In this document: positions 1,544 through 51,649 of the stretch, piece by piece
How positions within the stretch are numbered: the stretch's first letter is position 1
Layout of the letters: the number at the start of each line of letters is the position of its first letter
From: a virus
Direction: 5' to 3' (one strand)
IMG/VR virus record: IMGVR_UViG_3300031963_000094
Coordinates: 1-64,000 of that record
Length of the DNA: 64,000 nt
Translations under genes and position numbers: made by a program
Notes under the pieces: generated by a model
What the model was told of the DNA's origin: nothing
What the model saw: only the letters and a program-made list of their open reading frames with translations
Databases searched by the model: none

Positions 1544-2095
1544 ATGCGTTACATCACACTATTACTTTGTAGCATCTTTGCGGCATTTGTTGTATATGTT
1601 GGTCATGCCGCAGCACAGATCAGTATACCAGTTCAACCGAAAGTTCAACTGGAAGATTTATCACCACAAGCAAGATCGGAAGTCGAATGTCTTGCTCAGA
1701 ACATGTATTTTGAAGCAGGACTAGAACCAAGACTTGGACAAATTGCCGTAGCATTTGTTACATACAATCGAATGCTGTCTGGTGTATTTCCAGATACTTA
1801 CTGCGGCGTAGTCAAACAAAAAGTTGGCACTGTTTGCCAATTCTCATGGGTATGTGAAAATCGTCCTAAGGATATGATGAGAAAAGGACTCTTGACAATA
1901 GAGAGTAATTCGTTGTATAATAGTGTAACTGAACTAGCATTGGCGTTCTATCTTTATACTGAAAAGTTCAAAGATCCAACCAGAGGTGCCTTGTTCTTTC
2001 ATGCGGACTATGTAAAACCTGGTTGGAATAATATGAGGTATACTGCTCAAATCGGCAGACATTTATTCTACAATAAGGCAAAGAAAAGTTCATGA
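1544..2095 (+). CDS. Secreted SleB-type cell-wall hydrolase
   Basis: 183 residues. Residues 1-25 form a clear Sec signal peptide (basic MR, hydrophobic ITLLLCSIFAAFVVYV, likely cleavage after HAAA). The mature part matches the SleB/Hydrolase_2 fold: CLAQNMYFEAGLEPRLGQ with the catalytic-type Glu in YFEA, then TYNRM, then YCGVVKQK, CQFSWVC and the C-terminal TRGALFFHADYVKPGW. Family members cleave peptidoglycan glycan strands as lytic transglycosylases or amidases. AAGGAG lies eight bases before the ATG. The signal peptide suggests it acts in the periplasm, either as endolysin or in wall remodelling. The small membrane protein at 2125 follows directly. Confidence 0.85.
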   Translation: MRYITLLLCSIFAAFVVYVGHAAAQISIPVQPKVQLEDLSPQARSEVECLAQNMYFEAGLEPRLGQIAVAFVTYNRMLSGVFPDTYCGVVKQKVGTVCQFSWVCENRPKDMMRKGLLTIESNSLYNSVTELALAFYLYTEKFKDPTRGALFFHADYVKPGWNNMRYTAQIGRHLFYNKAKKSS

Positions 2096-4146: not shown

Positions 4147-5004
4147 ATGTCAGACTTTTCTAGTCTCAAACGCAATCGCAATTCGTTCGACAAACTCACC
4201 AAAGCGATTGAATCAATCAATACACCAGCAGAAGGTTCTAAAGACGATGACCGTTTTTGGCAACCAGAAGTGGACAAAGCCGGTAATGGTATGGCAATTA
4301 TTCGTTTCTTGCCAGCACCAGCAGCAGATGGTGATGATGCTCTTCCTTGGGTTCGTGTTTTCAATCACGGTTTTCAAGGTCCAGGTGGCTGGTACATTGA
4401 AAACTCTTTGACTACTTTGAATCAGAAAGATCCTGTATCAGAATATAACTCTGTTCTGTGGAATTCTGGTATTGAAGCAAACAAAGAAATCGCACGTAAG
4501 CAGAAACGCCGTCTTACATACATTTCAAATGTGCTTATCGTTTCTGATCCTAAAAATCCAGAAAATGAAGGTAAAATCAAACTGTATAAGTTTGGTAAGA
4601 AAATCTTCGACAAACTGACTGAAGCAATGAATCCTCAGTTTGAAGATGAGAAAGCAATCAATCCATTTGATTTCTGGGACGGTGCGAATTTCAAAATCAA
4701 GATTCGTCAAGTTGAAGGTTATCGCAACTATGATAAGTCTGAGTTTGATTCTCCTTCAGCATTGTTTGATGGTGATGATGCGAAACTTGAAGAACTATGG
4801 AAAAAAGAAAACTCACTCAAAGAGTTTCTTGATCCTAAACACTTTAAGTCATATGATGTGTTGAAGGCAAAACTTGATAAGGTTCTTGGTCTTGATGGTG
4901 CTGCTCCTGTGTCTAAGACAAAAGCAGAAGACTTCACACCACGTTCTTCACCAGATATTGAAGATGAAGAACTTGATTATTTCAAGTCTCTAGCAGAAGA
5001 TTAA
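4147..5004 (+). CDS. 32: Single-stranded DNA-binding protein gp32
   Basis: 285 residues, against 301 in T4. It has the T4 gp32 plan: a basic N-terminal cooperativity region (SLKRNRNSFDKLTKAI), an OB-fold core (MAIIRFLPAP, WYIENSLTTL, KQKRRLTYISNVLIVSDP), and an acidic C-terminal tail (DIEDEELDYFKSLAED) that recruits partner proteins. It binds ssDNA cooperatively in replication, recombination and repair. The protein contains no cysteine at all, so the Cys/His zinc site of T4 gp32 is absent, as I recall for cyanophage relatives too. GAGG precedes the ATG. A strong terminator follows immediately. Confidence 0.93.
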   Translation: MSDFSSLKRNRNSFDKLTKAIESINTPAEGSKDDDRFWQPEVDKAGNGMAIIRFLPAPAADGDDALPWVRVFNHGFQGPGGWYIENSLTTLNQKDPVSEYNSVLWNSGIEANKEIARKQKRRLTYISNVLIVSDPKNPENEGKIKLYKFGKKIFDKLTEAMNPQFEDEKAINPFDFWDGANFKIKIRQVEGYRNYDKSEFDSPSALFDGDDAKLEELWKKENSLKEFLDPKHFKSYDVLKAKLDKVLGLDGAAPVSKTKAEDFTPRSSPDIEDEELDYFKSLAED

Positions 5005-5012
5005 ATCATTTG

Positions 5013-5039
5013 ACGGCACCTTCGGGTGCCGTTTTTTTT
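5013..5039 (+). terminator. Rho-independent terminator after gp32
   Basis: An 8-bp stem, ACGGCACC (5013-5020) and GGTGCCGT (5025-5032), is capped by a TTCG tetraloop and runs into eight T residues. It ends plus-strand transcription of the gp33-gp32 unit just before the convergent minus-strand operon. On the minus strand the hairpin lacks a T tract, so it works mainly one way. Confidence 0.92.
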
Positions 5040-6756
5040 ATGCTGGATGAAGAATCTTTTCTTCAGAAATAATTGTGGTGTTGTTTGTTATACCAGCGTT
5101 TATAACTTTTGGATTTTGTGGCTTTGATTGTTGACGCTGTTCCATCGCAATTTCATTTGACGATTTTCCTATGTTAGCACCCTCAACGACTTTGCCTGTC
5201 GAAACATCAACCGCATTGCCTAGTTTATCAGGAACTTCCGCATCATCTGGTGTTGCTGGCGCACCAGCAATAGTAACGTGCCAATCTTCACCTTTGACAT
5301 TGCGAATCAAACCAAACTTCTCTAACCAACCTTTTGACTTGTCTCTTGGTCCGGCAAGTTCGTTCAGACCAGCTGACCCTATACTATTAATATCAATACC
5401 CAAGCCTTTCATGTGAACACTACCAGCACCTTGTCCTAGAGGAGCCATTGGTTGTGCCACTTTACCGCTAGGCTTACCATTGTTCTTTGCTAAGTCGGCA
5501 TCATACAGTTGTTTTTGTTTTTCATTTGAACGATAGCCAGAAGTAATCGTCAGCATTTTGCCAGTTTCTTGTTTGAATGCTGATGCCATTAATTCAATAC
5601 GGCGTTGAAACTCAGAATTGAATTTTGAGGTATCTACACCAGGATCTGCTTTCTTTGTAATGCTGTCTAAGCTACCAGTTGGTTTAGTTAATGGTTGTCC
5701 TGAAGGCACTTCACTAGGACTACCTTTAATTGGTGTTGCTAGTGGTCCGCCAGAAGGTGCTGCTTCTTTTGGCGCAAATACTGATTTATCAGATACTCGT
5801 TTTGTTGGTGTTATTGCTGGAGGTGGAGTAGGTGCTTCTCTTGCCGCACGACCTTCTGCTTTTTCTTGTTCATATTGTTTTTTATTTTCAAGATATTCTT
5901 TGAGTGAAATAATTCTACTCTTGAGTAAAGAAATATCTTCATCAAGTGCTTTGATCGTTTCTACAGCATTGGCATACGGGTCTTCTTCAAGTGCTTTTCT
6001 TCTTTCTTCTTTAACACCCTGTGTTTCTACACCAAGTCCTTTGTCAAGTGAACGACCAAAAGACATGAGTTTTTCTTTTACCCAATCTGCGATGCCACCA
6101 ATAAAATAGCCTACACGATCTGTTACTGGCTTTATAAAACTACCAATACTTTCTAAGACTTTAGTGGCATCATCTTTCGTAATGAGTCCAAAAGAAATAA
6201 ACTCAATGAATGTAGACATCTCATCTGTTATGATTTCACCAAAATTAAATGATGTAAAAAATCCGGTAATAGAAGAATAGAGAGATTCTAATGCTGAACC
6301 GATAATACCTTCAACGCCACCATACATTTCTAAAACATCAAGTACCAAATCTTTATTGAAGATAAAAACGGTAAATAAAAGAGTTGCCGCAGTGATTAGT
6401 GGCTTGAAGATTATTTCAAGTAACGATCTTCGTTTCTTTTCTTTCTTTTCTCTTTTTTCTTTTGGTTCTTTTAATTTTACCTGTGTGAAACGATCTTTTA
6501 ATGGCGCAAGTCTACTCAACAAACTTTCTTTTGCCGGTTTTTCACCAGTCTCATTTACAAGAAACTTACTAAAGCCTTTTGTTACTAACTTAAAGTCTCT
6601 TCCTATTCTAGGAAGAAGCAACATATTTTTGGCAATAATTTTGAGTGAAGCAACACCAAGCAAAGTATTTTTTCTTTGCTCTTCCTTTTCTTTATCTTGT
6701 TTTGATAAACCAAACAGTTTATTTGAAATAGATTTACCTAGTATTTCTCTTATCAT
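5038..6756 (-). CDS. Hub-region structural paralogue with C-terminal M15 (VanY-like) peptidase
   Basis: 572 residues. An N-terminal part shared with the next two genes (RIGRDFKLVTKGFSKFLV near residue 50; hydrophobic helix near 115-135; ISFGLITKDDATKVLE near 195) is followed by a Glu/Lys coiled-coil, a Pro-rich linker, and an M15 peptidase domain at about residues 395-495. Peptidase marks are SGYRSNEKQ, GSVHMKGLGID (the HxxGxxxD zinc motif) and DWHVT. Such enzymes cut D-Ala-containing peptidoglycan cross-links. The C-terminus (VINAGITNNTT) matches its paralogues. I infer a tail-associated protein that opens the wall during entry. It is the last gene of the minus operon and overlaps the upstream gene by four bases. 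Confidence 0.78.
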   Translation of the reverse strand: MIREILGKSISNKLFGLSKQDKEKEEQRKNTLLGVASLKIIAKNMLLLPRIGRDFKLVTKGFSKFLVNETGEKPAKESLLSRLAPLKDRFTQVKLKEPKEKREKKEKKRRSLLEIIFKPLITAATLLFTVFIFNKDLVLDVLEMYGGVEGIIGSALESLYSSITGFFTSFNFGEIITDEMSTFIEFISFGLITKDDATKVLESIGSFIKPVTDRVGYFIGGIADWVKEKLMSFGRSLDKGLGVETQGVKEERRKALEEDPYANAVETIKALDEDISLLKSRIISLKEYLENKKQYEQEKAEGRAAREAPTPPPAITPTKRVSDKSVFAPKEAAPSGGPLATPIKGSPSEVPSGQPLTKPTGSLDSITKKADPGVDTSKFNSEFQRRIELMASAFKQETGKMLTITSGYRSNEKQKQLYDADLAKNNGKPSGKVAQPMAPLGQGAGSVHMKGLGIDINSIGSAGLNELAGPRDKSKGWLEKFGLIRNVKGEDWHVTIAGAPATPDDAEVPDKLGNAVDVSTGKVVEGANIGKSSNEIAMEQRQQSKPQNPKVINAGITNNTTIISEEKILHPA

Positions 6757-8822
6757 GTCACTCTTGCTGTTGCTATTTCGTTAGAGTCGCTTTTTCTTGG
6801 TGCTATCGTGCGTGTATCATGACCTTTTGTATTGTTTGTTTGCGGAACATTGATTACATCAACATCTTTTGGTTTGAGTTGTTCTCTTTGACCTTGCGAC
6901 ACTTCTTTGCTTGTTGATGACAATTCAACACCACCAAAACTTGCTGATGCTTTTTCAACTTTTGCTAAAAGTTCAGCACCTTTACCAACATCTAAGTTTA
7001 ATTTTTTTCCACCAATTGCTTGTGTGACAGCACGATTAGCTTCAGATTGTGATTTGAAAGAATTTAATTTGTCTTTACCTAAAGATTTCATTATGAAGGC
7101 TGCTGTGACTTTTGTTGCTACCGTAGGGTCAAGCAGTCTTGTTGGATTATTAACTAAATCTTCACCAATCAGTTTACCATAATAAGTATAGTTATTTTTA
7201 CCGGTTAGTTGAATGAAACCACGACCAATATATTTGAACCCATCACCCTCAGCGGTGTTTCCCATACCTTTACCAATGACGGTGTTTTTACCATAAACTA
7301 CTTCGGCAAATTTGTACGGATCTTTTTTAATTACATGTAACTCAGCATCGGAAAAGTTTTGAACACGTGTGGTAAAAGTTGCTCTAATTTTTTCATTTGG
7401 TGTGTTGCTGTAATTTAAATTTTCCTCAAATCTTTTGAAGCCAGTTTCCTTTTCTACGTTCGCAAGCGTAGCAATAATAGCAAACTTGTTTGTGATACCG
7501 ATGTTTTGTAACTCTTTAACAATGACTCTTACAAGTTCGTCACGACCTGAGACCTTCGTTGGTGCCGCTGATGGTACTTTACCTGGCGCAGAGGGCTTTG
7601 GAGCATGTGCTTCTTTTTTGGCTTGTTGCTCACGTTGAATCGCATCAGCCAATCCTTTTTCTGATGTACGCAGTTCTTCTCTTTTTTCTTGGAGTTTTTT
7701 AGTTGTCTCTGATGGTTTACCCATCGATTGTTCTTCTAAAACGGCAACCTCATCAATTAATCGGTCACGTTCTTCCGTTTTCATTAGAATGATTTCACGG
7801 GCTTTAGCTAGATTCTCTGCTACTTGTTTTTGTCTTTCTGCTTCTACTCTTGCTGCTTCTTCTGCTGCTTTTTGTTGATCTATAATTGCACCAAGTTCTT
7901 TTTCACTCAGAGGCTTTTCTTTGAGTGGATTCATCTCCATCATTTTGTCAACGGCATTATTTACAAACGTGAAGATGTAATCCGAAGTATCATTGATAAA
8001 GTTCGATAATTTTTCAGGGAAGTTTTTTACAAAGTCTACAGTACCATCGATTACTTTTTTGGCTGTGTCTTTGTCAAACAAACCAAATGTAAGTGAGTCA
8101 ACAACTCCAGCGATACCTGCTTTGATTGTTTCATACAGACTGCCAGTAGACTGCCACGTATCCCATGCGTCAGTCAAACCATCCCATAAAGTCAAAATGA
8201 TTAATGCGATCCAACCTATTGGTCCTGCTGCTGCCGCAATGCCTCTAAATGCTACTTTGACAGCCGACTTCTCAGCCATCTTAGCCATTTTCTTTTCGAG
8301 TTTACCTTTGAGTTTGTCTACCATTGGTCGTAGATACTTCTCAAAGGCTTCTTCGAAATACTTCAAAGTGTTCTTAGCAAAGTCTTTAACTTTACCTACA
8401 AGCTGCTTGGCAAGTTTCTTTATTTTCTCAAATAATTTTAAAAGTTTTTCTTTTAGTTTTTTTACTTGGTCTTTGGCAAACTTTTTAAATTTCTTGAATA
8501 ACTTACCTTTTGATGAATCCTCATCATCTTCTGACGGTGTGTTCTTTTTTACAAATTCGTCTTGAAGGACTTTGAATTTTCTTTCACGTTCATCATCTTT
8601 CAGAAAGTGCATGTCTGGATTTTCTGATGCTTTACCACCATAAATCTCTACAAGTTTAATAATGTTTTGACGAATGATGTTCAAGTCTCTGGCAATTCGT
8701 GAAACTGCCATAAAATTCAAAGATGCTTTTGAAAGTTTTTTGACTGTGGGTGAAGTTCTTTTGGTAGAAGTTTTATTTAAAACTTTCTTGCTTATTGCTA
8801 ACCCAAGTTTTTCGGATAACAT
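6753..8822 (-). CDS. Hub-region structural paralogue with GH19 (chitinase/endolysin-like) domain
   Basis: 689 residues. The N-terminus shares SRIARDLNIIRQNIIKLVEI (residues 42-61) with its neighbours. A long Lys-rich coiled-coil follows (about 90-180), then an Ala/Gly hydrophobic segment (about 205-225), the second shared motif LTFGLFDKDTAKKVID, another coiled-coil, and a GH19 domain at roughly 430-600. The GH19 marks are VEKETGFKRFEENLNYS, DGFKYIGRGFIQLTG and NNPTRLLDP; the Glu in KETGF is the probable acid catalyst. GH19 phage domains hydrolyse peptidoglycan glycan strands. The tail VINVPQTNNTK is shared with the paralogues. Probable virion-associated lysin rather than free endolysin, because of the long structural N-terminus. 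Confidence 0.78.
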   Translation of the reverse strand: MLSEKLGLAISKKVLNKTSTKRTSPTVKKLSKASLNFMAVSRIARDLNIIRQNIIKLVEIYGGKASENPDMHFLKDDERERKFKVLQDEFVKKNTPSEDDEDSSKGKLFKKFKKFAKDQVKKLKEKLLKLFEKIKKLAKQLVGKVKDFAKNTLKYFEEAFEKYLRPMVDKLKGKLEKKMAKMAEKSAVKVAFRGIAAAAGPIGWIALIILTLWDGLTDAWDTWQSTGSLYETIKAGIAGVVDSLTFGLFDKDTAKKVIDGTVDFVKNFPEKLSNFINDTSDYIFTFVNNAVDKMMEMNPLKEKPLSEKELGAIIDQQKAAEEAARVEAERQKQVAENLAKAREIILMKTEERDRLIDEVAVLEEQSMGKPSETTKKLQEKREELRTSEKGLADAIQREQQAKKEAHAPKPSAPGKVPSAAPTKVSGRDELVRVIVKELQNIGITNKFAIIATLANVEKETGFKRFEENLNYSNTPNEKIRATFTTRVQNFSDAELHVIKKDPYKFAEVVYGKNTVIGKGMGNTAEGDGFKYIGRGFIQLTGKNNYTYYGKLIGEDLVNNPTRLLDPTVATKVTAAFIMKSLGKDKLNSFKSQSEANRAVTQAIGGKKLNLDVGKGAELLAKVEKASASFGGVELSSTSKEVSQGQREQLKPKDVDVINVPQTNNTKGHDTRTIAPRKSDSNEIATARVT

Positions 8823-8823
8823 A

Positions 8824-10512
8824 TTATGTTGTTAAATAGTTTTTCATAAAACTTGAATTATATGGATCAGCAACACTTTCTGAAGATGGTGCTTGTTTGC
8901 CAGAAGTATTGTTTGTCATTGGCGCATTGACTACTGTTCCGGCATCAGCCGCAGCATCCATTCTTTGACCTTCTGCAACCATTGATGAATTAGTTGATAA
9001 CGCTGAACCAGAGGGTGCTGACATTGCTGGTGTAGGTATAGGGGGTGAAGGTGCGGCACCATCTGCGCCTGCTGCTCCAATTGAACCTGTTGCGCCTGTG
9101 GCACCAGCTACACCAGCAGCACCAGCTACACCAGCAGCACCAGCTACACCAGCAGCACCATCGGCTCCGGCAGGCACAGGTGATGTGCTTGCGCCTTTTG
9201 CCATTTGTAAAATCTTGGTTGGCTCACCACCAACAGCAATAACTTTACGACGAACTTCTTCTTCTGTTACTGATTTACCTGATGCTTGATCTGTGTAGCC
9301 AGTTGATGAAGATGGGTCAACATTGATACCAACTTTAGAACTTAGAAAACCCTTTGCGGCATCTTGACTCTTTTCAGCATTGAGTGGACTGTATGGATCA
9401 GGTGTAGGTGATTTGCCTACTGTTTCAGCAAGTGCTTGTTGTGACGCTTTTTGCTTTTCTTGTTTTTCTTTTTCTTTTGGCTTGTCTTCTAATCTATCTT
9501 TTGCTGCTTTGTCATAGAATACACCTTCACCAGAATCAAGTTTACCACTCATTTCTTTCAGTGATGTTGTAGCAGATGATGTGTATGTTTCGGGTGCAGC
9601 ACTACTCGTATCTTTTTTGAATGGATAATAGGGTTTAGTGTCTTGTAATACACTACCCTTGAATGAGCCAACACCGAGAATGGAAAAATCATATGCTGTC
9701 AATTTGCTAAACGGTATTGCTGGTATCCCAACATTATTTTTAATGAATGTGACAACTTTATCAAAAAGTTCGGTGACACCAAGCAACAGCGGCATCATCA
9801 TTTTCAATGCTGAGTCCATACCTTGACGAAGTTCTTTTTCACCGAACAATCCAAATGTAATAAACTTCAGGAATCCACCAAGCGCAGCAACAAGTGTATC
9901 TACAATGCTGCCACTTTCTTTCCAAACTTTGATGCCATCAAGAATACCGTTAATTAGACCACCAATCAACATCGCAGGTATGAATATCTTGCTTAGTATC
10001 GCAAGTATTGAACCGCCACTAAACAATGAAGCAAATCCACCAACAATGCCAGTAATCAATCCACCAATTAACTTTACTGGATTGAGCATACTCAACAAAC
10101 TACCAATACCACCTTCTTCTTTTGGTGCTGCTTCTCTACCACCTCTTTCCGCTGCTGGTGTTGCTGCTTTGCTTTTTGCTCTGGTTGCTTCTAGTTCTGC
10201 TTCACGTTGATCTTCAGTTTTAAAAAACTTATCTGCTTTAGTCGCAGCAGTTTCACCTTTGATCTTTACAAGTTTGGCCATATTCTGGCGAAGCACATTG
10301 ACATCTCTTGCTATGCCAGGAAAAGCAAGAGATTGTTTAGCAATTAAATCAAGAAAAGGAAGCACATTGGAACCAACTGTTGGCTCTTCTGCTTTTTGTT
10401 CAACACCTTCTTTGGTAGGTGATGTTTCTTTTTTCTTTTCTTTCTTCTTTTCTTTTTTACCAAAAATAGAAGATAAAAGACCTTTTTTTGTTTCTTCTTT
10501 CTTTTTTGCCAT
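8824..10512 (-). CDS. Hub-region structural paralogue with collagen-like segment
   Basis: 562 residues. It has a very basic N-terminus (KKEKKKEKKKE), the shared motif PGIARDVNVLRQNMAKLVKI (65-84), a Gly/Ile/Leu-rich hydrophobic region (about 140-190), the second shared motif FITFGLFGEKELRQGMD, then low-complexity sequence and a collagen-like Gly-x-y stretch with repeated GVAGAA near residues 450-485. It ends like the others (VVNAPMTNNTS). No catalytic domain is visible. Its length is close to T4 tape-measure gp29 (590 residues) and it directly follows gp51 and gp26, so it is a tape-measure or hub candidate, by position only. Alternative: an accessory injected protein. Confidence 0.7.
   Translation of the reverse strand: MAKKKEETKKGLLSSIFGKKEKKKEKKKETSPTKEGVEQKAEEPTVGSNVLPFLDLIAKQSLAFPGIARDVNVLRQNMAKLVKIKGETAATKADKFFKTEDQREAELEATRAKSKAATPAAERGGREAAPKEEGGIGSLLSMLNPVKLIGGLITGIVGGFASLFSGGSILAILSKIFIPAMLIGGLINGILDGIKVWKESGSIVDTLVAALGGFLKFITFGLFGEKELRQGMDSALKMMMPLLLGVTELFDKVVTFIKNNVGIPAIPFSKLTAYDFSILGVGSFKGSVLQDTKPYYPFKKDTSSAAPETYTSSATTSLKEMSGKLDSGEGVFYDKAAKDRLEDKPKEKEKQEKQKASQQALAETVGKSPTPDPYSPLNAEKSQDAAKGFLSSKVGINVDPSSSTGYTDQASGKSVTEEEVRRKVIAVGGEPTKILQMAKGASTSPVPAGADGAAGVAGAAGVAGAAGVAGATGATGSIGAAGADGAAPSPPIPTPAMSAPSGSALSTNSSMVAEGQRMDAAADAGTVVNAPMTNNTSGKQAPSSESVADPYNSSFMKNYLTT
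9101..9154 (-). repeat. Three perfect 18-bp repeats encoding collagen-like GVAGAA units
   Basis: The 18-base unit gcaccagctacaccagca occurs three times head to tail (9101-9118, 9119-9136, 9137-9154). Read on the minus strand it encodes the Gly-x-y hexapeptide of the collagen-like segment in the gene at 8824-10512. Exact identity points to recent slippage or recombination. Confidence 0.95.
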
Positions 10513-10683
10513 TTATCGTCTTGCCTGTTTTTGTGCGTTAATACGTTCTTTTTCTTCTTCCAAATACTGCATCAAAAGACCCAAATAAATGGTTCTTTCC
10601 CAAGGTAACATTTCTTCAAGTTCAGTCAAACTATACTTGTGATGCTGGATCAATGCAAAGTTTGTCTGATAATAATTACTCAG
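10513..10683 (-). CDS. 51: Baseplate hub assembly chaperone gp51 (start codon uncertain)
   Basis: A short conserved frame reading SNYYQTNFALIQHHKY, ELEEMLPWERTIYLGLL and QYLEEEKERI matches the short gp51-type protein of cyanophage-like genomes. It lies immediately between gp26 and the three paralogues. The frame is open from 10725, but no ATG precedes the conserved region; CTG at 10683 is the nominal start used here, and ATC/TTG alternatives are possible. It abuts the next start at 10512 with no gap. In T4 gp51 catalyses hub assembly without staying in the virion. Identity is likely; the exact start is not. Confidence 0.68.
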   Translation of the reverse strand: MSNYYQTNFALIQHHKYSLTELEEMLPWERTIYLGLLMQYLEEEKERINAQKQARR

Positions 10684-10700: not shown

Positions 10701-11432
10701 TTAGGCGAAAAAATTTTGAAGCCCTTTAATCTCAATGTCTTCTTCGTATCCACATTTACCACATTTGAAGTGGACATCTTTCTTCAGTTCTGGCATCGTG
10801 TCAAAAAACAATTTAATCTTTTCTAAATCTTTTTGTGACATTGAGTCAACAAATTCAACCAACTCTTCGTGTGAAGAATCTTTGGCATAATACACTTGTT
10901 CTTTATCATACAGATATTCAATACAATCAATTAACACATTTACCAAAATATCGTTTTCATTCATGCTTTCATATTTCTGGATCATCTCAAAAGTAGGATA
11001 CTTCAGACAAATTCCAATTTGGTCATTCAACATAAATTTGTTGTTGTGATTCGCATGAACTGTTGGCTCAACTTCTAATAGATTCAGTTTAAAATCTACT
11101 GAGCCACTACATGTAGCATCTTCACCTTTATCGTTTTTAATAACGTTATTACACTTATACTTTAAGTCAACAACTTCTTCTACCGATCTAGCACGGAGGT
11201 GCATGAACAAATATTCAAGATCAAACGTTGGTAAAGAATCAATATCAATGTCATCTAGCACACAATTCTTTAGAACTCTACGAATCGTTCCAATCACATC
11301 TTTGGAATCTTCTGATTCTGCTGCCATCAAAAACAATTTTTGTTCTTTGACAAGAAATGGTCTAATTCGAACACTCTGTCCATTTGAAATCAATTTAATG
11401 GTATAAATTGGTACGTCAAGTTTTGGTAACAT
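10701..11432 (-). CDS. 26: Baseplate hub subunit gp26
   Basis: 243 residues, against 208 in T4. The N-terminus (IYTIKLISNGQSVRIRPFLVKEQKLFLMAAES) is typical of the T4 baseplate hub gp26 family, as are LKNCVLDDIDIDSLPTFDLEYLFMHLRARS and VDLKYKCNN. It has internal cysteines and a C-terminal CGKCGYEED knuckle, so the two cysteine pairs could bind zinc. gp26 is part of the hub that forms the start point for wedges and tube. It lies in the minus operon between gp54 and gp51. Confidence 0.85.
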   Translation of the reverse strand: MLPKLDVPIYTIKLISNGQSVRIRPFLVKEQKLFLMAAESEDSKDVIGTIRRVLKNCVLDDIDIDSLPTFDLEYLFMHLRARSVEEVVDLKYKCNNVIKNDKGEDATCSGSVDFKLNLLEVEPTVHANHNNKFMLNDQIGICLKYPTFEMIQKYESMNENDILVNVLIDCIEYLYDKEQVYYAKDSSHEELVEFVDSMSQKDLEKIKLFFDTMPELKKDVHFKCGKCGYEEDIEIKGLQNFFA

Positions 11433-15130: not shown

Positions 15131-16480
15131 ATGGAAACAGTTAATTTACCGGAAACGCCATCAAAATTTAGTATCAACGAACTTGCTATTGTAACTAAAG
15201 CAGGTAAGTTGGACATATCTAAACTGTTTCAGGAAATAAACATATTTGACTCTCTTTTATCTCCGGTCATGTCGGGTGCTGTAGTCATTATTGATTCTAT
15301 TGGATTATCGTCTAAACTTTTGTTTGATGGGTCGGAAGTTCTTCTTGTAAACATTGGTAAGGATACAGACTCATCGTCTTTTCGTTTAAAAAAAGCATTT
15401 AGAATATATCGTCAAAGTAACAGAGCCACACTACAACAAAATGCCGAAACATACACTTTAGAATTTGTTTCTGATGAGTTTATTTTTTCTGAACAACAAA
15501 AAATAAATCAATCATACAAAACAACTTACAGTGATGTGGTCAATAAAATACTGGTCAATTATTTAAAAGTACCAGAACAAAAATTAAGAGGCGTGTTCCA
15601 AGACACGACTGGTATTCGTGATTTAGTTATACCTAATTTGAAACCTCTTGATGCTTTAGAATGGTGTGCTAAACGTGCTGTTGATCAAAGAAGATCACCC
15701 AACTATGTTTTCTTTGAAAACAATTTGGGGTTTAACTTTGCTTCACTGTCTTATCTTCTTTCGTCTGATTATCTGTTCAAGATTAAATTTCCAGCAAAAA
15801 ATTTAGAAGAAACAAAACCAAATCAAGATTTGTTAAGCCCACGACATTTTGAAGTTGTTAATCAGTCTGATAAAATAAAAACCACTAGAGAGGGTGTGGC
15901 TGCTGGAACATTTATTGGATTTGATCCTATTACAAGAACAGTACAAAATAAACGTATTGGGTTTGAAGATCATTACAACGCTATGGATCACGGCAACGAT
16001 ACTGCCAACTTTTCTCAATCAAAGAATCGAGGTGGTGAAACAGCAACTCAAGCGTTCGACTCAAAAAAGGTAGTGAATATTTTTGGCGCTAACATAAAAA
16101 ATAGTGAGTACATTAAAAAGTATGATCCCACATCAATCTCAAAAGTTGAAAACCCAGAAGATTTTATATTTGCTCGAAAAGCCATTTTTAGCAATCTAAT
16201 GAACAAAAGAATTAAACTTGTGATGCCTGGTAATTTTCAATTGACTTCGGGCTTCAATTTGAATGTTCGTGTACCAGATTTTTCAAAAAAAGAAAGTGGC
16301 TCCGAAAACGAAGATCGTTCGTTAAGTGGGAAATATTTGATTATTGCTACAAGACATATTATTAAGTATGATATGCATGAAACAGTTTTAGAACTTGCAA
16401 CAACATCGAATGAAACTGACTTTATACCACAAAGTGTGCCAGAACAAAATCAAGCGATAGAGACTTATGGAAGCTACTGA
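15131..16480 (+). CDS. 27: Baseplate hub protein gp27-like
   Basis: 449 residues, against 391 in T4. The N-terminus FQEINIFDSLLSPVMSGAVV, with IIDSIGLSSKLLFDGSEVLL, matches the first tube-like domain of gp27. The middle YSDVVNKILVNYL, NLKPLDALEWCAKRAVD and SPNYVFFENNLGFNF, and the C-terminal LSGKYLIIATRHII with VLELATTSNE, match the gp27/hub fold. It would form the trimeric torus on which the gp5 spike sits. gp5 follows with a 14-base overlap, consistent with the gp27-gp5 complex. Confidence 0.85.
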   Translation: METVNLPETPSKFSINELAIVTKAGKLDISKLFQEINIFDSLLSPVMSGAVVIIDSIGLSSKLLFDGSEVLLVNIGKDTDSSSFRLKKAFRIYRQSNRATLQQNAETYTLEFVSDEFIFSEQQKINQSYKTTYSDVVNKILVNYLKVPEQKLRGVFQDTTGIRDLVIPNLKPLDALEWCAKRAVDQRRSPNYVFFENNLGFNFASLSYLLSSDYLFKIKFPAKNLEETKPNQDLLSPRHFEVVNQSDKIKTTREGVAAGTFIGFDPITRTVQNKRIGFEDHYNAMDHGNDTANFSQSKNRGGETATQAFDSKKVVNIFGANIKNSEYIKKYDPTSISKVENPEDFIFARKAIFSNLMNKRIKLVMPGNFQLTSGFNLNVRVPDFSKKESGSENEDRSLSGKYLIIATRHIIKYDMHETVLELATTSNETDFIPQSVPEQNQAIETYGSY

Positions 16481-17330
16481 TAATAAAGATTTTGCTGGTA
16501 AATATGGCTTTACCTGGTGGATGGGGATTGTTGAAAAAATCAACGATCCTTTAAAACTTGGTCGCTGTAGGGTTCGTTGTGTTGGTTGGCACACCGACAA
16601 TAAGTCTTTATTGCCAACAGATGACTTGCCTTGGGCGATGTCTTCAATTCCAGTAAATACCAATAATGTTTACCCGCCACGTGAGGGTGATATGGTATTT
16701 GGTTTTTTCGTTGATGGTGAAAATGCTCAAGTGCCTGTAATTCTTGGCGTACTTCCGGGTATACCACTCAATGCTGCCAACTATCAACAAGGCTTCAATG
16801 ATGCTAGAACACCAGAAGAAGTTTCTGCTGCGCCAGTCAAGCCATATGAGTCATCAACAAACTATCCACGTAAGTTAGATGAACCAACAACATCAAGACT
16901 TGCTCGAAATGATTCTGATTATCCATCTGAAATACTGACTGCAAAAAAAGAAAAAAAAGCAAGTAAAGTAGAACCAGATTCATATTACAATGCAAAGTAT
17001 CCCTACAACAATGTATATGAGTCTGAGTCAGGACATGCCCTAGAATTTGATGATACTAAAGGCGCCGAACGTGTTCATGTTTATCATCGCTCAGGCTCAT
17101 ACACTGAGTGGGGACCAGAAGGTGATAGAGTAGAAAGAATACAAAGAAATAAATTTGAAGTTGTTATTGGTGACGAAAAAGTTTATATAAAAGGTAATGT
17201 AGAATTATACGTAGATGGTAATGTAAACATGGAAGTTGGAGGTAATTTTCAAGCTGAAATAGGTGGAACCTGTGAGATAAACTCAAGTGGAAATATGTCA
17301 TTCAATGCTCCACAAATAGATTTCAACTAA
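16467..17330 (+). CDS. 5: Baseplate central spike gp5, lysozyme-less
   Basis: 287 residues, half the length of T4 gp5 (575). Residues about 10-100 form the OB-fold (WWMGIVEKINDPLKLGRCRV, VYPPREGDMVFGFFVDGE, VPVILGVLPGIP). Residues about 175-287 form the triple beta-helix needle with short repeats (VYIKGNVELYVDGNVNMEV, GGNFQAEIGGTCEINSSG). The middle lysozyme domain of T4 is replaced by a short Lys/Pro-rich linker. The protein pierces the outer membrane and carries the PAAR tip. Wall digestion must come from elsewhere, plausibly the GH19 and M15 proteins of the minus operon. Confidence 0.88.
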   Translation: MEATDNKDFAGKYGFTWWMGIVEKINDPLKLGRCRVRCVGWHTDNKSLLPTDDLPWAMSSIPVNTNNVYPPREGDMVFGFFVDGENAQVPVILGVLPGIPLNAANYQQGFNDARTPEEVSAAPVKPYESSTNYPRKLDEPTTSRLARNDSDYPSEILTAKKEKKASKVEPDSYYNAKYPYNNVYESESGHALEFDDTKGAERVHVYHRSGSYTEWGPEGDRVERIQRNKFEVVIGDEKVYIKGNVELYVDGNVNMEVGGNFQAEIGGTCEINSSGNMSFNAPQIDFN

Positions 17331-30789: not shown

Positions 30790-31122
30790 ATGGCCAATAC
30801 TTTTAAAAATCAAACACTCAAAGCTGCTGGAACTACGGCACAAAATGTCTATTCGGCTGGTGCTGGAGTACAAGCAACTGTGATTGGCATGACAATTGCT
30901 AACATCACGAACTCACCAATCTCAGCAAATGTCATTCTGAGTGGCGGCAACATTACCAATAATGTTTATCTTGTCAAAGATGCGACAATTGCTCCTGGTG
31001 GTGCTTTAGTTCCTATTGGTGGTGATCAAAAAATGGTGCTTGAAGCGGGTGATTATTTACAAGTCAACACATCAATTGCTTCATCTGGCGATGTTATCGT
31101 TTCAGTTCTGGAGATTACGTAA
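30790..31122 (+). CDS. Small beta-sandwich fibre adaptor, copy 1
   Basis: 110 residues from the ATG at 30790; an in-frame TTG directly before it is not needed, as GAGG lies six bases upstream of the ATG. The pattern VIGMTIANITNSPISANVIL, APGGALVPIGG, KMVLEAGDYLQV is a beta-sandwich type common in small proteins of phage fibre regions. Relatives with the same IAN and PxxS/TLVxL layout are at 31653 and 37033. The stop overlaps the next start by one base (TAATG). Structural adaptor or fibre collar are reasonable guesses. Confidence 0.68.
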   Translation: MANTFKNQTLKAAGTTAQNVYSAGAGVQATVIGMTIANITNSPISANVILSGGNITNNVYLVKDATIAPGGALVPIGGDQKMVLEAGDYLQVNTSIASSGDVIVSVLEIT

Positions 31123-31640
31123 TGTCATATATTGGCAATAGCCCTGAAGTAAATTTCTTTACGGCTAAAGTAGATAAGTTTAGTGGTACCGGTGCTTGTA
31201 CTCAATTTACTTTGTCAAGAACTCTTGATGATGCCAATGCTATTATCGTTGTTGTCAATAGTGTGTTACAAACACCAATTGCTTCGTATAATGTTTCATC
31301 GGGTGTTGTAACATTCACTGAAGCGCCATCATTAGGCACCGAAAATATTTTGGTGAATTATACGTCACCAATTACATTGACATTTAATCAAGTTACTCAA
31401 AGTCAAATTCAAGCGGGCGCTGTCGGTGTAACACAACTTGCAGCAAATTCTGTCACTAGTGATAAGATTGCACCAGGCACTATTGTAGCAACAGATGTCG
31501 CTGATGGCAGCATCACAACGCTCAAAATAGCGACTGGCGCAATTACAGGCAATTTAGTCGCAAACAACGCAATCTCAGGCAACAATATCGTATCACCTCC
31601 AGACATTTTCGATGATGCATTTTTGTTTGGTGGAATGTAA
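31122..31640 (+). CDS. Fibre stalk protein with GNNI/GNL repeats (cassette 1)
   Basis: 172 residues. It begins MSYIGN, as does the gene at 36457. Residues about 18-88 are the recurring fibre beta module (TQFTLSRTLDDANAIIVVVN, VVTFTEAPSLGTENILVNY). The rest is pentapeptide-like repeats with Asn/Gly/Ile steps (ATGAITGNLVANNAISGNNI), likely a trimeric beta-helical stalk. The C-terminus PPDIFDDAFLFGGM is almost identical to that of the gene at 50501. Virion fibre component. Followed by an adaptor and a large adhesin. Confidence 0.7.
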   Translation: MSYIGNSPEVNFFTAKVDKFSGTGACTQFTLSRTLDDANAIIVVVNSVLQTPIASYNVSSGVVTFTEAPSLGTENILVNYTSPITLTFNQVTQSQIQAGAVGVTQLAANSVTSDKIAPGTIVATDVADGSITTLKIATGAITGNLVANNAISGNNIVSPPDIFDDAFLFGGM

Positions 31641-36456: not shown

Positions 36457-37029
36457 ATGTCTTATATTGGCAATCAAGTTACGTCAGTACCGCATATAGT
36501 TGATTTATTCAACGGCGATGGTAGCAGCACTATTTTTGGTGTTCTTACCAGGGCACCTGCTGGGACAGCAGCCGTTGTTGTTTTTGTTAACGGTTCTTAC
36601 AAAATTCCAGGTATTGATTATACTCTAAGTGGTGATATCATTACGTTTACTACTGCTCCTTCAGTAGGCACAAACAATATTGCTGTTCATCATATTGGTA
36701 ATGGCACAACAACACAAGTACCATCAGACGGTTCTGTAACTGGTAATAAACTTGCAGCTACATCAGTTTCAGGTAATAATCTTACTCAAAACTCTATTCG
36801 TGGCAATAACATTGTTGCTGGTACAATTACTGGTAATCTGATTGCCGCAGAAACCATTACTGGTGATGATTTAGCACCAAATAGTGTTCGTGGAAACAAC
36901 ATTGTTGCCGGTACAATTACTGGTAATCTAATCGCAGACGGCACTATATCAGATAGCAACTTTTCAGCATCAGCAAATACAAAAATCCTAAGTTCAGGAT
37001 TTGTAGGATCAATTATTTTTGGAGCATAA
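36457..37029 (+). CDS. Fibre stalk protein with GNNI/GNL repeats (cassette 2)
   Basis: 190 residues, a paralogue of the gene at 31122 (both start MSYIGN). It has a fibre beta module at about 15-90 (VVVFVNGSYKIPGIDYTLSG, IITFTTAPSVGTNNIAVHH). It continues with repeats such as RGNNIVAGTITGNLIA (two near-copies) and ends in GSIIFGA. The repeats are the same as those in the genes at 50501 and 50822. Likely a trimeric stalk bearing the adaptor and glycine-rich adhesin encoded next. Confidence 0.7.
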   Translation: MSYIGNQVTSVPHIVDLFNGDGSSTIFGVLTRAPAGTAAVVVFVNGSYKIPGIDYTLSGDIITFTTAPSVGTNNIAVHHIGNGTTTQVPSDGSVTGNKLAATSVSGNNLTQNSIRGNNIVAGTITGNLIAAETITGDDLAPNSVRGNNIVAGTITGNLIADGTISDSNFSASANTKILSSGFVGSIIFGA

Positions 37030-40754: not shown

Positions 40755-43700
40755 ATGTCAAATACATCAATTCAAATAAAGCGTTCGCTAACAACAAATA
40801 CACCTGTATCACTCAACATTGGTGAACCAGCGTATTCGTATAGTAGTAACACATTATTCATTGGTTCACCAGCGGAAACAGGTGCTATTCCTATTGGTGG
40901 ACATGATTCATATCTTCGTGGACTTACATCATATGAACAAGCTAATATAGCATTTCGTACAGCAAATGCTGCTTCAATTCGTGCTAACAATTCGCTAAAC
41001 GCCAACTCTGGTGGCACAATTACTGGTGATGTTCTGATTCAAGGTAATCTGAATATCGTTGGTGGTTCGATTGGTGCCAATGTACCTGTCGTATTGATCG
41101 GTGATAATATTATCACACTGAATACAGCGATTAGTCAGTCGGGTCAACCGACAATGAATGCTGGTATTGAAATTGATCGTGGCGCACAACCGAATGTTTA
41201 TTTGTTGTGGAATGAAACTGACAACAAATGGACATTTACGAATGATGGCGTAAACTATGATGATCTGGGTGGTTCAGCGACAGCATCGTATGCTAACTCA
41301 GCTTTCGTACAAGCAAACTCGGCATTCTTACATGCTAATTATTCTTTTGATCAAGCAAATTCTGGATTTACACAAGCTAATTCTTCGTTCTTTCATGCGA
41401 ATGCTGCGTATCTACATGCGAATGCCGCATATACAAGTCAAAACACAAGCGGTATTAGAGCAAACTCGGCATATGAACAAGCCAACGCAGCATACATTCA
41501 TGCTAACTCGGCATTTCAGTTTCAAAACGCATCTGGTAATTATGCGAACTCTGGATTCATTCAAGCCAACTCAGCATATCATCATGCGAATGCTGCTTTT
41601 GTAAATGCCAATAGTACATTTGCTACTACTAACTCCGCATTCATTCACGCAAATGCCGCATACGCAAGTCAAAACACAACTGGCATAAGAGCAAACTCTG
41701 GATTTGTACAAGCCAACTCTGCATTCTTTCATGCGAATGCTGCTTTCGCAAATGCCAACGGTGCTTTTGCTTCAGCCAATGCTGCTTTTGCAAATGCGAA
41801 TGGCGCTTTTGCTTCAGCGAATGCTGCATACATTCAAGCAAATTCTGGATTCATAAAAACTAATGCGGCGTTTGATCATGCTAATGCTGCTTTTGCTTCG
41901 GCAAATAATGTAGCACCACAGGTACAACCAGCATTCAACACCGCCAATGCGGCATTTATACAAGCGAATTCAAGTTTTATACATGTCAATTCTAGCTTTC
42001 ATCATGCGAATGCTGCTTTTGCAAATGCGAATGGTGCTTTTGCTAGAGCCAACGCTGCCTTTGCGAATGCCAACGGTGCTTTTGCTTCAGCGAATGCGGC
42101 ATTCAACACAGCCAACGCTGCATTTATTCGTGCCAATAATTCACTAAACGCAAACGTTGGTGGTCAAGTTACTGGTGATGTTACTATTGTTGGTAATGTT
42201 ACATCGAACACACTGACAACAACAGGTTCAAACGGTAGTATTACGGGTGCTAATGCTATCTTTTCAAATTATTTCTTTGGCGCAAACGGTACAGTAGACA
42301 TGTATGTCTACACATCATATGCTTTTGCAAATGCCAATGGTGCTTTTGCTTCAGCCAATGCTGCTTTCGCAAATGCTAATGGTGCTTTTGCTGCTGCTAA
42401 TGGTGCATATATTCAAGCCAATAGTGCATTTATAAAAACAAATGCTGCTTTTGACCATGCAAATGCAGCATATCTTTCACAGAATGCTACTGGTCAATAT
42501 GCGAATGCCGCATTCATTCATGCCAATTCGAGCTTCATAAAAACCAATGCTGCGTTTGATCATGCTAATGCTGCTTATATTTCACAGAATGCTACAGGTC
42601 AATATGCGAATGCGGCATTCATTCGTGCCAACAATTCGTTAAATGCAAATCTTGGTGGCACAGTTACCGCTAATGTTACAATTAATGCTAATCTAACAAC
42701 ACAAAATGTATTTGTTGGTTCGTATATTGATTTAAACACTTCATCTTCTATACCACCAAGAAACGAAGGTCGTATTTTTTACGAAAACGATCAGAAGACT
42801 TTAGCATATAACAACGAATCTGATAATACGATTCAACTTGGTCAAGAAACAGTAATTCGTGTATGGAATAATTCTGGTACTACAATTGCCAGAGGTAAAG
42901 TTGCTCGTATAGGTGGTGACGCATCGGCAAATGGTTTCCCCGCTGTTGCTCTTGCTTCGGCAACTCTTGCTGAGAATGCTGAAGTTGTTGGTGTTACTTC
43001 TACTACGATTGCAAATAATGATTATGGTTATGTAACGATACATGGTAAAATAAGAGGACTTAACACTTCGTTATTGACTGCTGGTCAAGAGTTGTTCTTG
43101 TCCGATACACCAGGTGAATATCAAACAACTCCACCAGCAACACCAAGTGTGCCAATGGCAATTGGTTATGTCACTCTGTCTGATGTAACAGACGGTTCGA
43201 TTCTTGTCTATTCTCATTTGATGGAAGGCAAGAATAAAACAAACGGTGCTATTCTGTTTGGTCGCAATGGTGCTATTGACCAAGATCCTACTAAACTGTA
43301 TTGGGATTATGTCAATGACCGTTTAGGTATTGATACAGACAGCCCACAAGCAAACCTACACGTTGCTGGTGATGGTTTGTTCACAGGTAATCTGACCATT
43401 ACAGGCAATCTGGTAGTTAGTAATGCTCAAACAATTACTACAGATCAATTGTTTATTGGTGGTAACAATGTAATTCTGAGTGCCAATGTTGTTGGTACAC
43501 CATCACTCAATGCTGCGATCATTGTCAATCGTGGCGACTCACCTAACGCATACATTCTTTGGGATGAAACTGTCAATGAATGGTTAGCATACGAAGGCAC
43601 TGGTGAACCTGGTCATATTCTTCTTGCGAATAAAACTGCGAACAGTTGGTTAGTATATAACACTTTTGAAGCATACGAAAAAGAATTTTATCCTATTGGT

Positions 43701-46220: not shown

Positions 46221-46703
46221 ATGTTACAAACAATAGGTTCCGCTAGAATAGCAAACAGTGCAGTAACAACTGTCAAGATAGCAGATTATGCCGTTACAAA
46301 CACCAAAATTGCCAATGCTGCCATCACTGTAGAAAATATCTCAGCGGATACTTTACCTAATTACGACTTAGATGATATATCATATCTGGCAGATGGAAAT
46401 ACATTAAATTTTCCATTAAGATATAACACAACAAATGTATCTGTCAGAGATCCGTCAAGTTTGATGATAATTGTAAATGGTACAATACAGAAACCTTATG
46501 CGAACACCTATGGTTCAAACACTTGGATAACTAACATATATGCCCCCGATGGTGGTTATATGTTAGACAGTGATGGTACAATTCGTTTCTCCGAACCCGT
46601 ACCGAACGGGTCAACAATTCAAATAAGAGTCGTTCCTGGCATCGCAAATACCGTTCAGAGAACTTATCCTTACCGACCAATCGATATTATGATTGGCGAA
46701 TAA
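46221..46703 (+). CDS. Fibre-tip-like protein with one beta module
   Basis: 160 residues. The N-terminal SARIANSAVTTVKIADYAVT, NTKIANAAIT repeat is a short stalk, and the rest resembles the fibre beta module (LNFPLRYNTTNVSVRDPSSL, MIIVNGTIQKPY, IQIRVVPG). It follows the giant fibre by three bases, so it probably forms its distal or accessory part. It ends RPIDIMIGE. No chaperone-like gene is seen directly after it. Confidence 0.68.
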   Translation: MLQTIGSARIANSAVTTVKIADYAVTNTKIANAAITVENISADTLPNYDLDDISYLADGNTLNFPLRYNTTNVSVRDPSSLMIIVNGTIQKPYANTYGSNTWITNIYAPDGGYMLDSDGTIRFSEPVPNGSTIQIRVVPGIANTVQRTYPYRPIDIMIGE

Positions 46704-50821: not shown

Positions 50822-51649
50822 ATGTCTGAACAAAAAGTAGAGTCGGGTCGTATAGCAGATGGTGCAATTCTTGGAAACAAGATTGCATCAAACGCCGTTC
50901 GTGGAAATAATATTGTTGCAAGTGCCATTACGGGAAACCTTATTGCTGATGGTTCTGTTTCTGGTAATAATATTGTTGATAATGCCATTCGTGGTAATAA
51001 CATTGTTGCTGGCACAATCACAGGCAATTTAATCGCAGACGGCTCAATTTCTGGTAATAATATTGTTGATAATGCCATTCGTGGTAATAACATTGTTGCT
51101 GGCACAATCACAGGCAATCTTCTTGCCGCACAAACAATTACTGGTGATGACTTAGCACCAAACAGTATTCGTGCTAACAACATCGTAGCAGGTCAAATTG
51201 CAAGTAACACACTTACTTCAAATTTACAAATATCACTTACGCAAGTATTTGAGACTGCCAATGTTTTTACAACAGCAGTAGGTGGTAATGTAAACATTGA
51301 TTTGCAGAATAATACAGTATATTTCTTTTCATCAAATACCACTGCAAATGTAACTTTTAATCTGAGAGCAAATACACAGAACACCCTTGATTCACAACTA
51401 GGAATAGGTCAATCAGTTACTACAGCAATTTTGTTGAAACAAGGTGCAACAAGATTTCGTGCTAATGTTTACGTCGATGGTGTATTACAGGCACCGTTTT
51501 ACTTGGGTAATTCTGCACCTTCTTTTGCGGCAACACAACAAGAATCTATTGACATATATTCGTTCAATGTTATAAAAACAGCAGCGAATACATATACAAT
51601 ATTGGCAGCAAACTCTAATTTCCAAAGAGCAACAAATCAGAATCCATAA
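50822..51649 (+). CDS. Fibre protein with stalk repeats and C-terminal beta domain
   Basis: 275 residues. Residues 10-130 are stalk repeats (SGNNIVDNAIRGNNIVAGTI, TGNLIADGS). Residues 135-275 form a domain shared with the gene at 49849 (NNTVYFFSSNTTANVTFNL, ANVYVDGVLQAPFYLG, DIYSFNVIKTAANTYTILA). It ends the adhesion region and lies three bases before gp13. A fibre or accessory whisker role is likely. Confidence 0.68.
   Translation: MSEQKVESGRIADGAILGNKIASNAVRGNNIVASAITGNLIADGSVSGNNIVDNAIRGNNIVAGTITGNLIADGSISGNNIVDNAIRGNNIVAGTITGNLLAAQTITGDDLAPNSIRANNIVAGQIASNTLTSNLQISLTQVFETANVFTTAVGGNVNIDLQNNTVYFFSSNTTANVTFNLRANTQNTLDSQLGIGQSVTTAILLKQGATRFRANVYVDGVLQAPFYLGNSAPSFAATQQESIDIYSFNVIKTAANTYTILAANSNFQRATNQNP
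50958..51118 (+). repeat. Perfect 71-bp direct repeat, period 90
   Basis: Bases 50958-51028 are repeated exactly at 51048-51118. The unit encodes the stalk segment SGNNIVDNAIRGNNIVAG and onwards. Absence of any mismatch, even at third codon positions, indicates recent duplication. Confidence 0.95.

Follow-up and report, generated by a model that had tools for sequence, protein, structure and literature searches.

To our knowledge, a phage tail is regarded as having a tape measure made by one gene only. The closest described systems place wall-degrading functions on tail proteins in different ways. The tape measure of mycobacteriophage TM4 is reported to be a long tail protein with a peptidoglycan hydrolase motif that is used at infection (PMC1796659). 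In Anabaena myophage A-1(L), the hub protein gp15 has lysozyme, endoglucanase and peptidase domains and three distal tape-measure ends are arranged as a tripod (PMC10966104). For T4, published work lists gp29 at 3 copies (PMC3004832). We find no report of tandem paralogous tape measures in the open-licence literature. Here we describe three tandem genes at 5038-10512, on the minus strand of a window of 64,000 nucleotides (nt), positions 1 to 64,000 of the 71,932-base IMG/VR virus record IMGVR_UViG_3300031963_000094. We call them slots 1, 2 and 3 in minus-strand order. The trio probably encodes internal tail (tape-measure or hub) proteins of a T4-like, Kyanoviridae-related contractile tail, which tail contraction would drive out and which would open the wall by activities that complement each other.

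Like the TM4 protein, the trio would consist of long tail proteins carrying wall-hydrolase motifs; here, however, there are three tandem paralogues, one enzyme-free, one with glycan cutters only and one with peptide cutters only. T4 gp29 (590 amino acids, aa) resembles the trio in its gp26/gp51/hub neighbourhood, length, hydrophobic segment and N-rich C-terminus. Yet gp29 is a single gene and the T4 tail lysozyme is carried by gp5, whereas here there are three genes, gp5 has no lysozyme and no sequence similarity to gp29 is significant. A-1(L) gp15 and the gp5 spike of Synechococcus phage BUCT-ZZ01 (L094:14482-17301; an OB domain, GH19 and, at the C-terminus, a weak match to M15) also bring glycan and peptide cutting to the tail tip, but on one hub or spike protein, not on separate scaffold paralogues. 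With GH19 and a weak M15 match on the BUCT-ZZ01 spike, the enzyme classes seen in the trio are thus located in some phages on gp5 and in others on the slot proteins. The cyanophage pairs of S-RIM44, S-N03, S-H34 and S-CREM2 likewise have large genes with wall hydrolases between gp51 and the hub protein; theirs, however, are two genes, both with enzymes where examined, on unrelated scaffolds, and they are annotated as hypothetical, chitinase or endolysin, never as tape measure.

Three paralogues with a common scaffold and C-terminal motif

The features of the array are the following.

8824..10512, minus strand: slot 1 paralogue (CO), scaffold without enzyme, 562 aa (open reading frame, ORF)
9730..10353, minus strand: N-terminal scaffold of slot 1, residues ~54-261, hydrophobic segments 139-157, 160-178 and 202-221 (profile comparison)
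9055..9177, minus strand: collagen-like low-complexity linker of slot 1, residues ~446-486 (Pfam, below cut-off)
8893..9012, minus strand: C-terminal motif of slot 1, VAEGQRMDAAADAGTVVNAPMTNNTS (profile comparison)
6753..8822, minus strand: slot 2 paralogue (GH), scaffold plus predicted endolysin-type GH19, 689 aa (ORF, Pfam, PDB search)
7950..8735, minus strand: N-terminal scaffold of slot 2, residues ~30-291, hydrophobic segment 190-210 (profile comparison)
6948..7532, minus strand: predicted GH19 cargo, residues ~431-625, with E459 and E467 of NVEKETGFKRFEENLNYS as candidate acid residues (Pfam, PDB search, motif)
6816..6935, minus strand: C-terminal motif of slot 2, VSQGQREQLKPKDVDVINVPQTNNTK (profile comparison)
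5038..6756, minus strand: slot 3 paralogue (M15), scaffold plus predicted VanY-type M15 peptidase, 572 aa (ORF, Pfam, PDB search)
6067..6669, minus strand: N-terminal scaffold of slot 3, residues ~30-230, hydrophobic segment 112-134 (profile comparison)
5227..5631, minus strand: predicted M15/VanY cargo, residues ~376-510 (Pfam, PDB search, motif)
5077..5181, minus strand: C-terminal motif of slot 3, IAMEQRQQSKPQNPKVINAGITNNTT (profile comparison)

Each chain is laid out as an N-terminal scaffold, predicted at low confidence to be helical and bearing a membrane-type hydrophobic segment, followed by a linker, then in two of the three by an enzyme module, and ending in a short motif that all three share. 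The three proteins are paralogues whose similarity goes far beyond low complexity. Comparison of the N-terminal halves with hhalign, using profiles built from 21-23 orthologues per paralogue, gives probabilities of 98.8% for CO-GH (P 7e-17), 99.1% for CO-M15 (P 1e-18) and 98.7% for GH-M15 (P 4e-16), while the best reversed-alignment control reaches P 2.5e-3. Direct blastp also links CO with GH (6e-10) and GH with M15 (5e-4). The C-terminal 60 residues match on their own (P 7e-6, 9e-8 and 3e-12), and the pattern SxxVAxxQRxQxKPxxxxVVNAPxTNN recurs over 60 representatives in all slots. A preliminary description of this DNA, made from the letters alone, had already taken the three ORFs for duplicated copies and had named three motifs common to them. 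The FGL and TNNT motifs are present as it claimed; the N-terminal motif holds for CO and GH, but its RQN is missing in M15, which has RIGRDFKLVTKGFSKFLV.

A tree of 86 scaffolds (256 columns, root not fixed) recovers each of the three slots as a single clade (SH-aLRT, a likelihood-ratio branch test, 98-100), and its five labels are explained by a minimum of 4 changes. The slot clades stay distinct though divergence reaches 20-30% identity. Because each slot is one clade, the duplications, as read from this tree, took place before these phages diverged. A sister type has two genes, the first of which groups with slot 1 (SH-aLRT 99); this type may represent the earlier condition.

The slot-1 scaffold, in the window and L028 versions, has no relatives by tblastn in cultured phages (50,697 phage records), slot 1 has none in GTDB genomes by alignment scan, and a hidden Markov model (HMM) of the C-terminal motif gives no significant match among 1756 ORFs of cultured phage loci. 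PDB searches with the whole family return meaningful matches for the cargo domains only.

Enzyme modules and their distribution among the slots

Pfam places GH19 (PF00182) at 527-579 of slot 2 (E 7e-7, 29.6 bits against a cut-off of 25.5) and VanY/M15 (PF02557) at 378-479 of slot 3 (E 3e-7, 30.7 bits against 25). The nearest solved structure to the slot-2 domain is the endolysin 4ok7, which we take to be that of Salmonella phage SPN1S. In slot 3 the metal and catalytic motifs are intact, SxHxxGxGxD at 446-455 (H448, D455) and EDWH at 490-493 (E490, H493). With profiles above cut-off, two glutamates in slot 2 and both motifs in slot 3, the cargos are assigned as a putative endolysin-type GH19 enzyme and a putative M15/VanY peptidase. 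Both lie between the scaffold and the common C-terminal motif, not at the very C-terminus as first described.

The third cargo named in that description, a collagen-like domain in slot 1, does not stand. Its Pfam score is 24.5 bits, under the cut-off of 27.2, and slot-1 orthologues have at this position a non-collagen filler rich in G, A, S and P and variable in length; collagen is therefore rejected as a cargo or a conserved structural domain, and the stretch is a linker rather than an effector. Given that it is not conserved and that 34 of 34 slot-1 representatives have no recognised enzyme, the array consists of two cargos and one cargo-free paralogue.

Related loci, many of them overlapping, gave 125 distinct complete proteins, in which cargo domains were called by profile; the GH19 calls in L134, L138 and L147 come from a custom HMM, not Pfam. 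All trios with readable cargo share one layout, no enzyme in slot 1, GH19, GH24, GH73 or SLT in slot 2, and M15 or M23 in slot 3. Similar scaffolds carry unrelated enzymes. The slot-2 proteins of L028 (GH19) and L030 (GH73) are 75% identical in the scaffold and 66% in the C-terminus, those of L026 (GH24) and L060 (SLT) 58% and 49%, and the slot-3 proteins of L025 (M15) and L026 (M23) 57% and 51%, the cargos being unrelated in every pair. Counted on a quick tree, the enzyme has changed at least 3 times within slot 2 and at least 2 times within slot 3, with no exchange of class between the two. By these comparisons enzymes are exchanged among relatives within a slot only, and the class is fixed by the slot. 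The early picture of a duplicated scaffold with exchangeable effectors, glycan- and peptide-cutting, is thus borne out in related genomes, where trios keep a constant slot layout, and the pairing is stricter than had been supposed. In the two-gene sister clade the second gene carries GH19, GH73 or M15 alone, or GH24 plus M15.

Two kinds of irregular slot gene are seen. In L017:5785-7890, L019:6473-8578 and L048:10061-12172 the slot-3 protein has an N-terminal extension of ~130 aa, which takes up the space directly behind the slot-2 stop and in L017 contains an 11-residue repeat (DAIAKLSKAQT). In L005:9691-10983 the slot-2 gene equals that of the window through residue 412 and then loses frame, probably an assembly frameshift.

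Position of the array in the tail block

The genes that bear on the position and role of the array are these.

4147..5004, plus strand: gp32-like single-stranded DNA-binding protein, fixed downstream border of the array (phrog_224)
10513..10653, minus strand: gp51-like catalyst of baseplate hub assembly, 46 aa, listed here with a TTG start (LIQHHKYSLTELEEMLPWERTIY against S-RIM44 LMQHHKYSLTEIEGMMPWERTVY)
10701..11432, minus strand: gp26-like baseplate hub protein (phrog_150, E 3e-67)
16467..17330, plus strand: gp5-like spike with OB and trimerisation domains, without lysozyme domain (domain search)
1544-2095, plus strand: small hydrolase with apparent signal sequence (phrog_938), presumably SleB-like

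On the minus strand the order is gp26, the gp51-like gene, slot 1, slot 2 and slot 3, with gp32 convergent from the plus strand. The genes are packed tightly: the stop of the gp51-like gene touches the slot-1 start (TAAATG), slots 1 and 2 meet at TAATATG, and slots 2 and 3 overlap by ATGA. In related loci, which overlap one another, gp26 lies 185-206 nt upstream of the array in 102 of 102, leaving room for gp51, and convergent gp32 lies downstream in 99 of 99.

The array occupies the place in the tail/baseplate block where, by synteny, relatives keep their tape-measure gene. In Pelagibacter phage HTVC008M the same position holds a single tape-measure gene of 687 aa (PHROG tape measure, E 8e-12). 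Rhizobium phage RHph_I46 has one 605-aa gene of unassigned function after a 141-aa gene and before gp32, in the order gp2-tube-gp26-gp51-X-gp32 that is also found here, and there is one large gene in the same slot in methylophage Melnitz (function unassigned) and in Mosig. A PHROG search of the window returns no other tape-measure candidate. Searched against eight trio records, three tape-measure profiles (phrog_58, 4200, 1535) give weak matches that lie within the trio genes, in the window those of slots 1 and 3 and in G006 that of slot 2 (E 3.5e-10); one match outside this pattern spans a stop codon, in two records. A membrane-type hydrophobic segment is found in 65 of 66 family members, in T4 gp29 and in most other slot proteins tested; among 27 other window ORFs of at least 200 aa only two have one, both weak. 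The gp5 protein has OB and trimer domains without the lysozyme domain of the T4 type, and none of 46 gp5 homologues in related loci carries any of the six cargo types.

Large slot genes of cultured cyanophages

In marine cyanophages this slot is filled by one or two large genes. The S-RIM44 pair (L105:6175-10993), annotated as hypothetical proteins, is paralogous (blastp E 4e-18; both PHROG 5453), carries Phage_lysozyme2 and M23 and gives PHROG tape-measure matches of 3e-12 and 1e-5; it is an independent-looking case of this design. The pair is 933+722 aa in S-N03 (GH19 + GH24, tail 138 nm) and 936+735 aa in S-H34 (annotated chitinase/endolysin, tail 129 nm). In S-CREM2 (L163:5484-14555; OR473000 154483-163554), with a tail of 418 nm, tandem 'endolysin' genes encode 1565+1456 aa with GH19 and GH24, roughly double the lengths in S-N03 and S-H34, the extra length being mostly added repetitive sequence. 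In S-CRM01 (tail 140-170 nm) the slot is taken up by one gaps-free gene of 865 aa, and P-SSM4 has two large genes with no recognised enzyme domain in Pfam. Both slot proteins of S-CREM2, labelled endolysin, were detected among the virion proteins by 73 and 71 unique peptides, in a report that makes no mention of a tape measure (PMC10665884). They are probably unrecognised tape measures. The cyanophage scaffolds have no detectable relation to the trio (hhalign for S-RIM44 and P-SSM4; blastp only for S-N03 and S-CREM2), and therefore the pairs are a parallel in position and design, not a proof of homology.

Role of the array and alternative explanations

A common C-terminal motif is to be expected if every paralogue binds a three-fold hub at an equivalent position, and therefore we favour internal tail proteins of the tape-measure or hub kind. 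The mixed internal tail complex suggested in the preliminary description would fit the gene position, the co-conserved three-gene array and the common motif. The motif would anchor every chain in the three-fold hub of the baseplate, where in A-1(L) the tape-measure C-termini make up their tripod, and the scaffolds would run along the inside of the tail tube and determine how long it is. Contraction would then expel the chains ahead of the DNA; the slot-2 enzyme would cut glycan strands and the slot-3 enzyme peptide cross-links. Together they would open the wall and so stand in for the lysozyme domain missing from gp5; slot 1 would be purely structural.

Several points weigh against this assignment. 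The three tape-measure profiles are unspecific, matching 6-10 of 14 unrelated control genomes, and their matches are thus supporting evidence only. The scaffold has no significant similarity to T4 gp29 or to the tape-measure protein of any cultured phage, with hhalign giving at most 22%, and an NNT-rich C-terminus in common with gp29 is visual only and fails statistics. AlphaFold models, with 22 sequences for slot 2 and 39 for slot 1, are of low confidence (pLDDT 50 and 55), and Foldseek gives no useful matches for them. Trio phages are known from metagenomic fragments alone, and the present record is a 72-kb fragment, so that a separate tape measure could lie elsewhere. In S-CREM2 neither chain alone, at helical rise, spans 418 nm, and the increase of slot-pair length with tail length, from S-N03 and S-H34 to S-CREM2, compares three cluster C phages by published tail lengths on scaffolds unrelated to the trio. 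Homology to the slot proteins of T4 (gp29), HTVC008M, Melnitz, Mosig, the Rhizobium phage and the cyanophages was considered and set aside as not significant by HMM and hhalign. The HTVC008M and Rhizobium tape-measure proteins found no match in the eight trio records, a search that is uninformative.

The true tape measure might be encoded elsewhere and the trio be hub or spike accessory proteins that place wall hydrolases in the baseplate lumen. Such enzymes do occur in hub proteins, as in A-1(L) gp15 and BUCT-ZZ01 gp5, and long linkers with folded cargo leave less helical length than a classical tape measure has. However, one sequenced relative has its only tape-measure gene in this slot and other relatives have one large gene each there, the window offers no other candidate, and slot genes lengthen with the tail in the cluster C cyanophages, all of which make the accessory role unlikely. 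It is very improbable that the trio are lysis enzymes with unusual N-terminal anchors and not virion proteins. Their enzyme families are those of endolysins, and PHROG and GenBank label such domains 'endolysin'; yet the array lies inside the baseplate block directly after gp26 and gp51, its enzyme-free slot 1 is always retained, the S-CREM2 'endolysin' counterparts are abundant virion proteins, and the separate small hydrolase at 1544-2095, near the array, is itself likely the lysis enzyme.

If the trio are internal tail proteins, we tentatively propose, with more doubt than conviction, that the tape measure is hetero-oligomeric, made of three non-identical paralogous chains with structural, glycan-cutting and peptide-cutting roles, one of each loaded asymmetrically on the three-fold hub. 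One contraction would deliver a complementary hydrolase pair, and duplication with slot-restricted domain exchange would adapt tails to host walls. Three complete paralogues are kept together with touching or overlapping start and stop codons, the C-terminal motif common to all slots is retained when the enzyme is swapped, the slot clades stayed separate down to 20-30% identity, and gp29 of T4 is listed at 3 copies (PMC3004832). On the other hand, the two-gene clade has two paralogues, so that any three-fold arrangement there is uneven, and separate homo-oligomers or an arrangement in series are equally open. A lineage with two or three slot paralogues, in which each paralogue keeps its enzyme class while enzyme families are freely exchanged, is a natural test of hetero-oligomeric tape measures, of how the hub recognises their ends and of how wall penetration is tuned. 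It offers a possible explanation for unannotated or 'endolysin'-labelled tandem cyanophage genes, as well as for the tail length of S-CREM2 (418 nm). Glycan and peptide hydrolases could also be drawn from it in pairs that selection has already matched.

Other features of the window

The T4-type tail/neck block of the window comprises gp32, gp26, a tube-type protein, gp2, gp4, gp48, gp53, a phrog_350 tail (hub-like) protein, gp5, gp25, gp6, gp8, sheath, tube, portal and terminase. The nearest relatives of its gp6 are those of methylophage Melnitz, pelagiphages and marine cyanophages, all Kyanoviridae. Small genes at 31122-31640, 36457-37029, 46221-46703 and 50822-51649 contain pieces of common fibre families (phrog_892, phrog_13518, phrog_5906), and fibre modules look repeated around an ORF of 1820 aa at 40755-46217.

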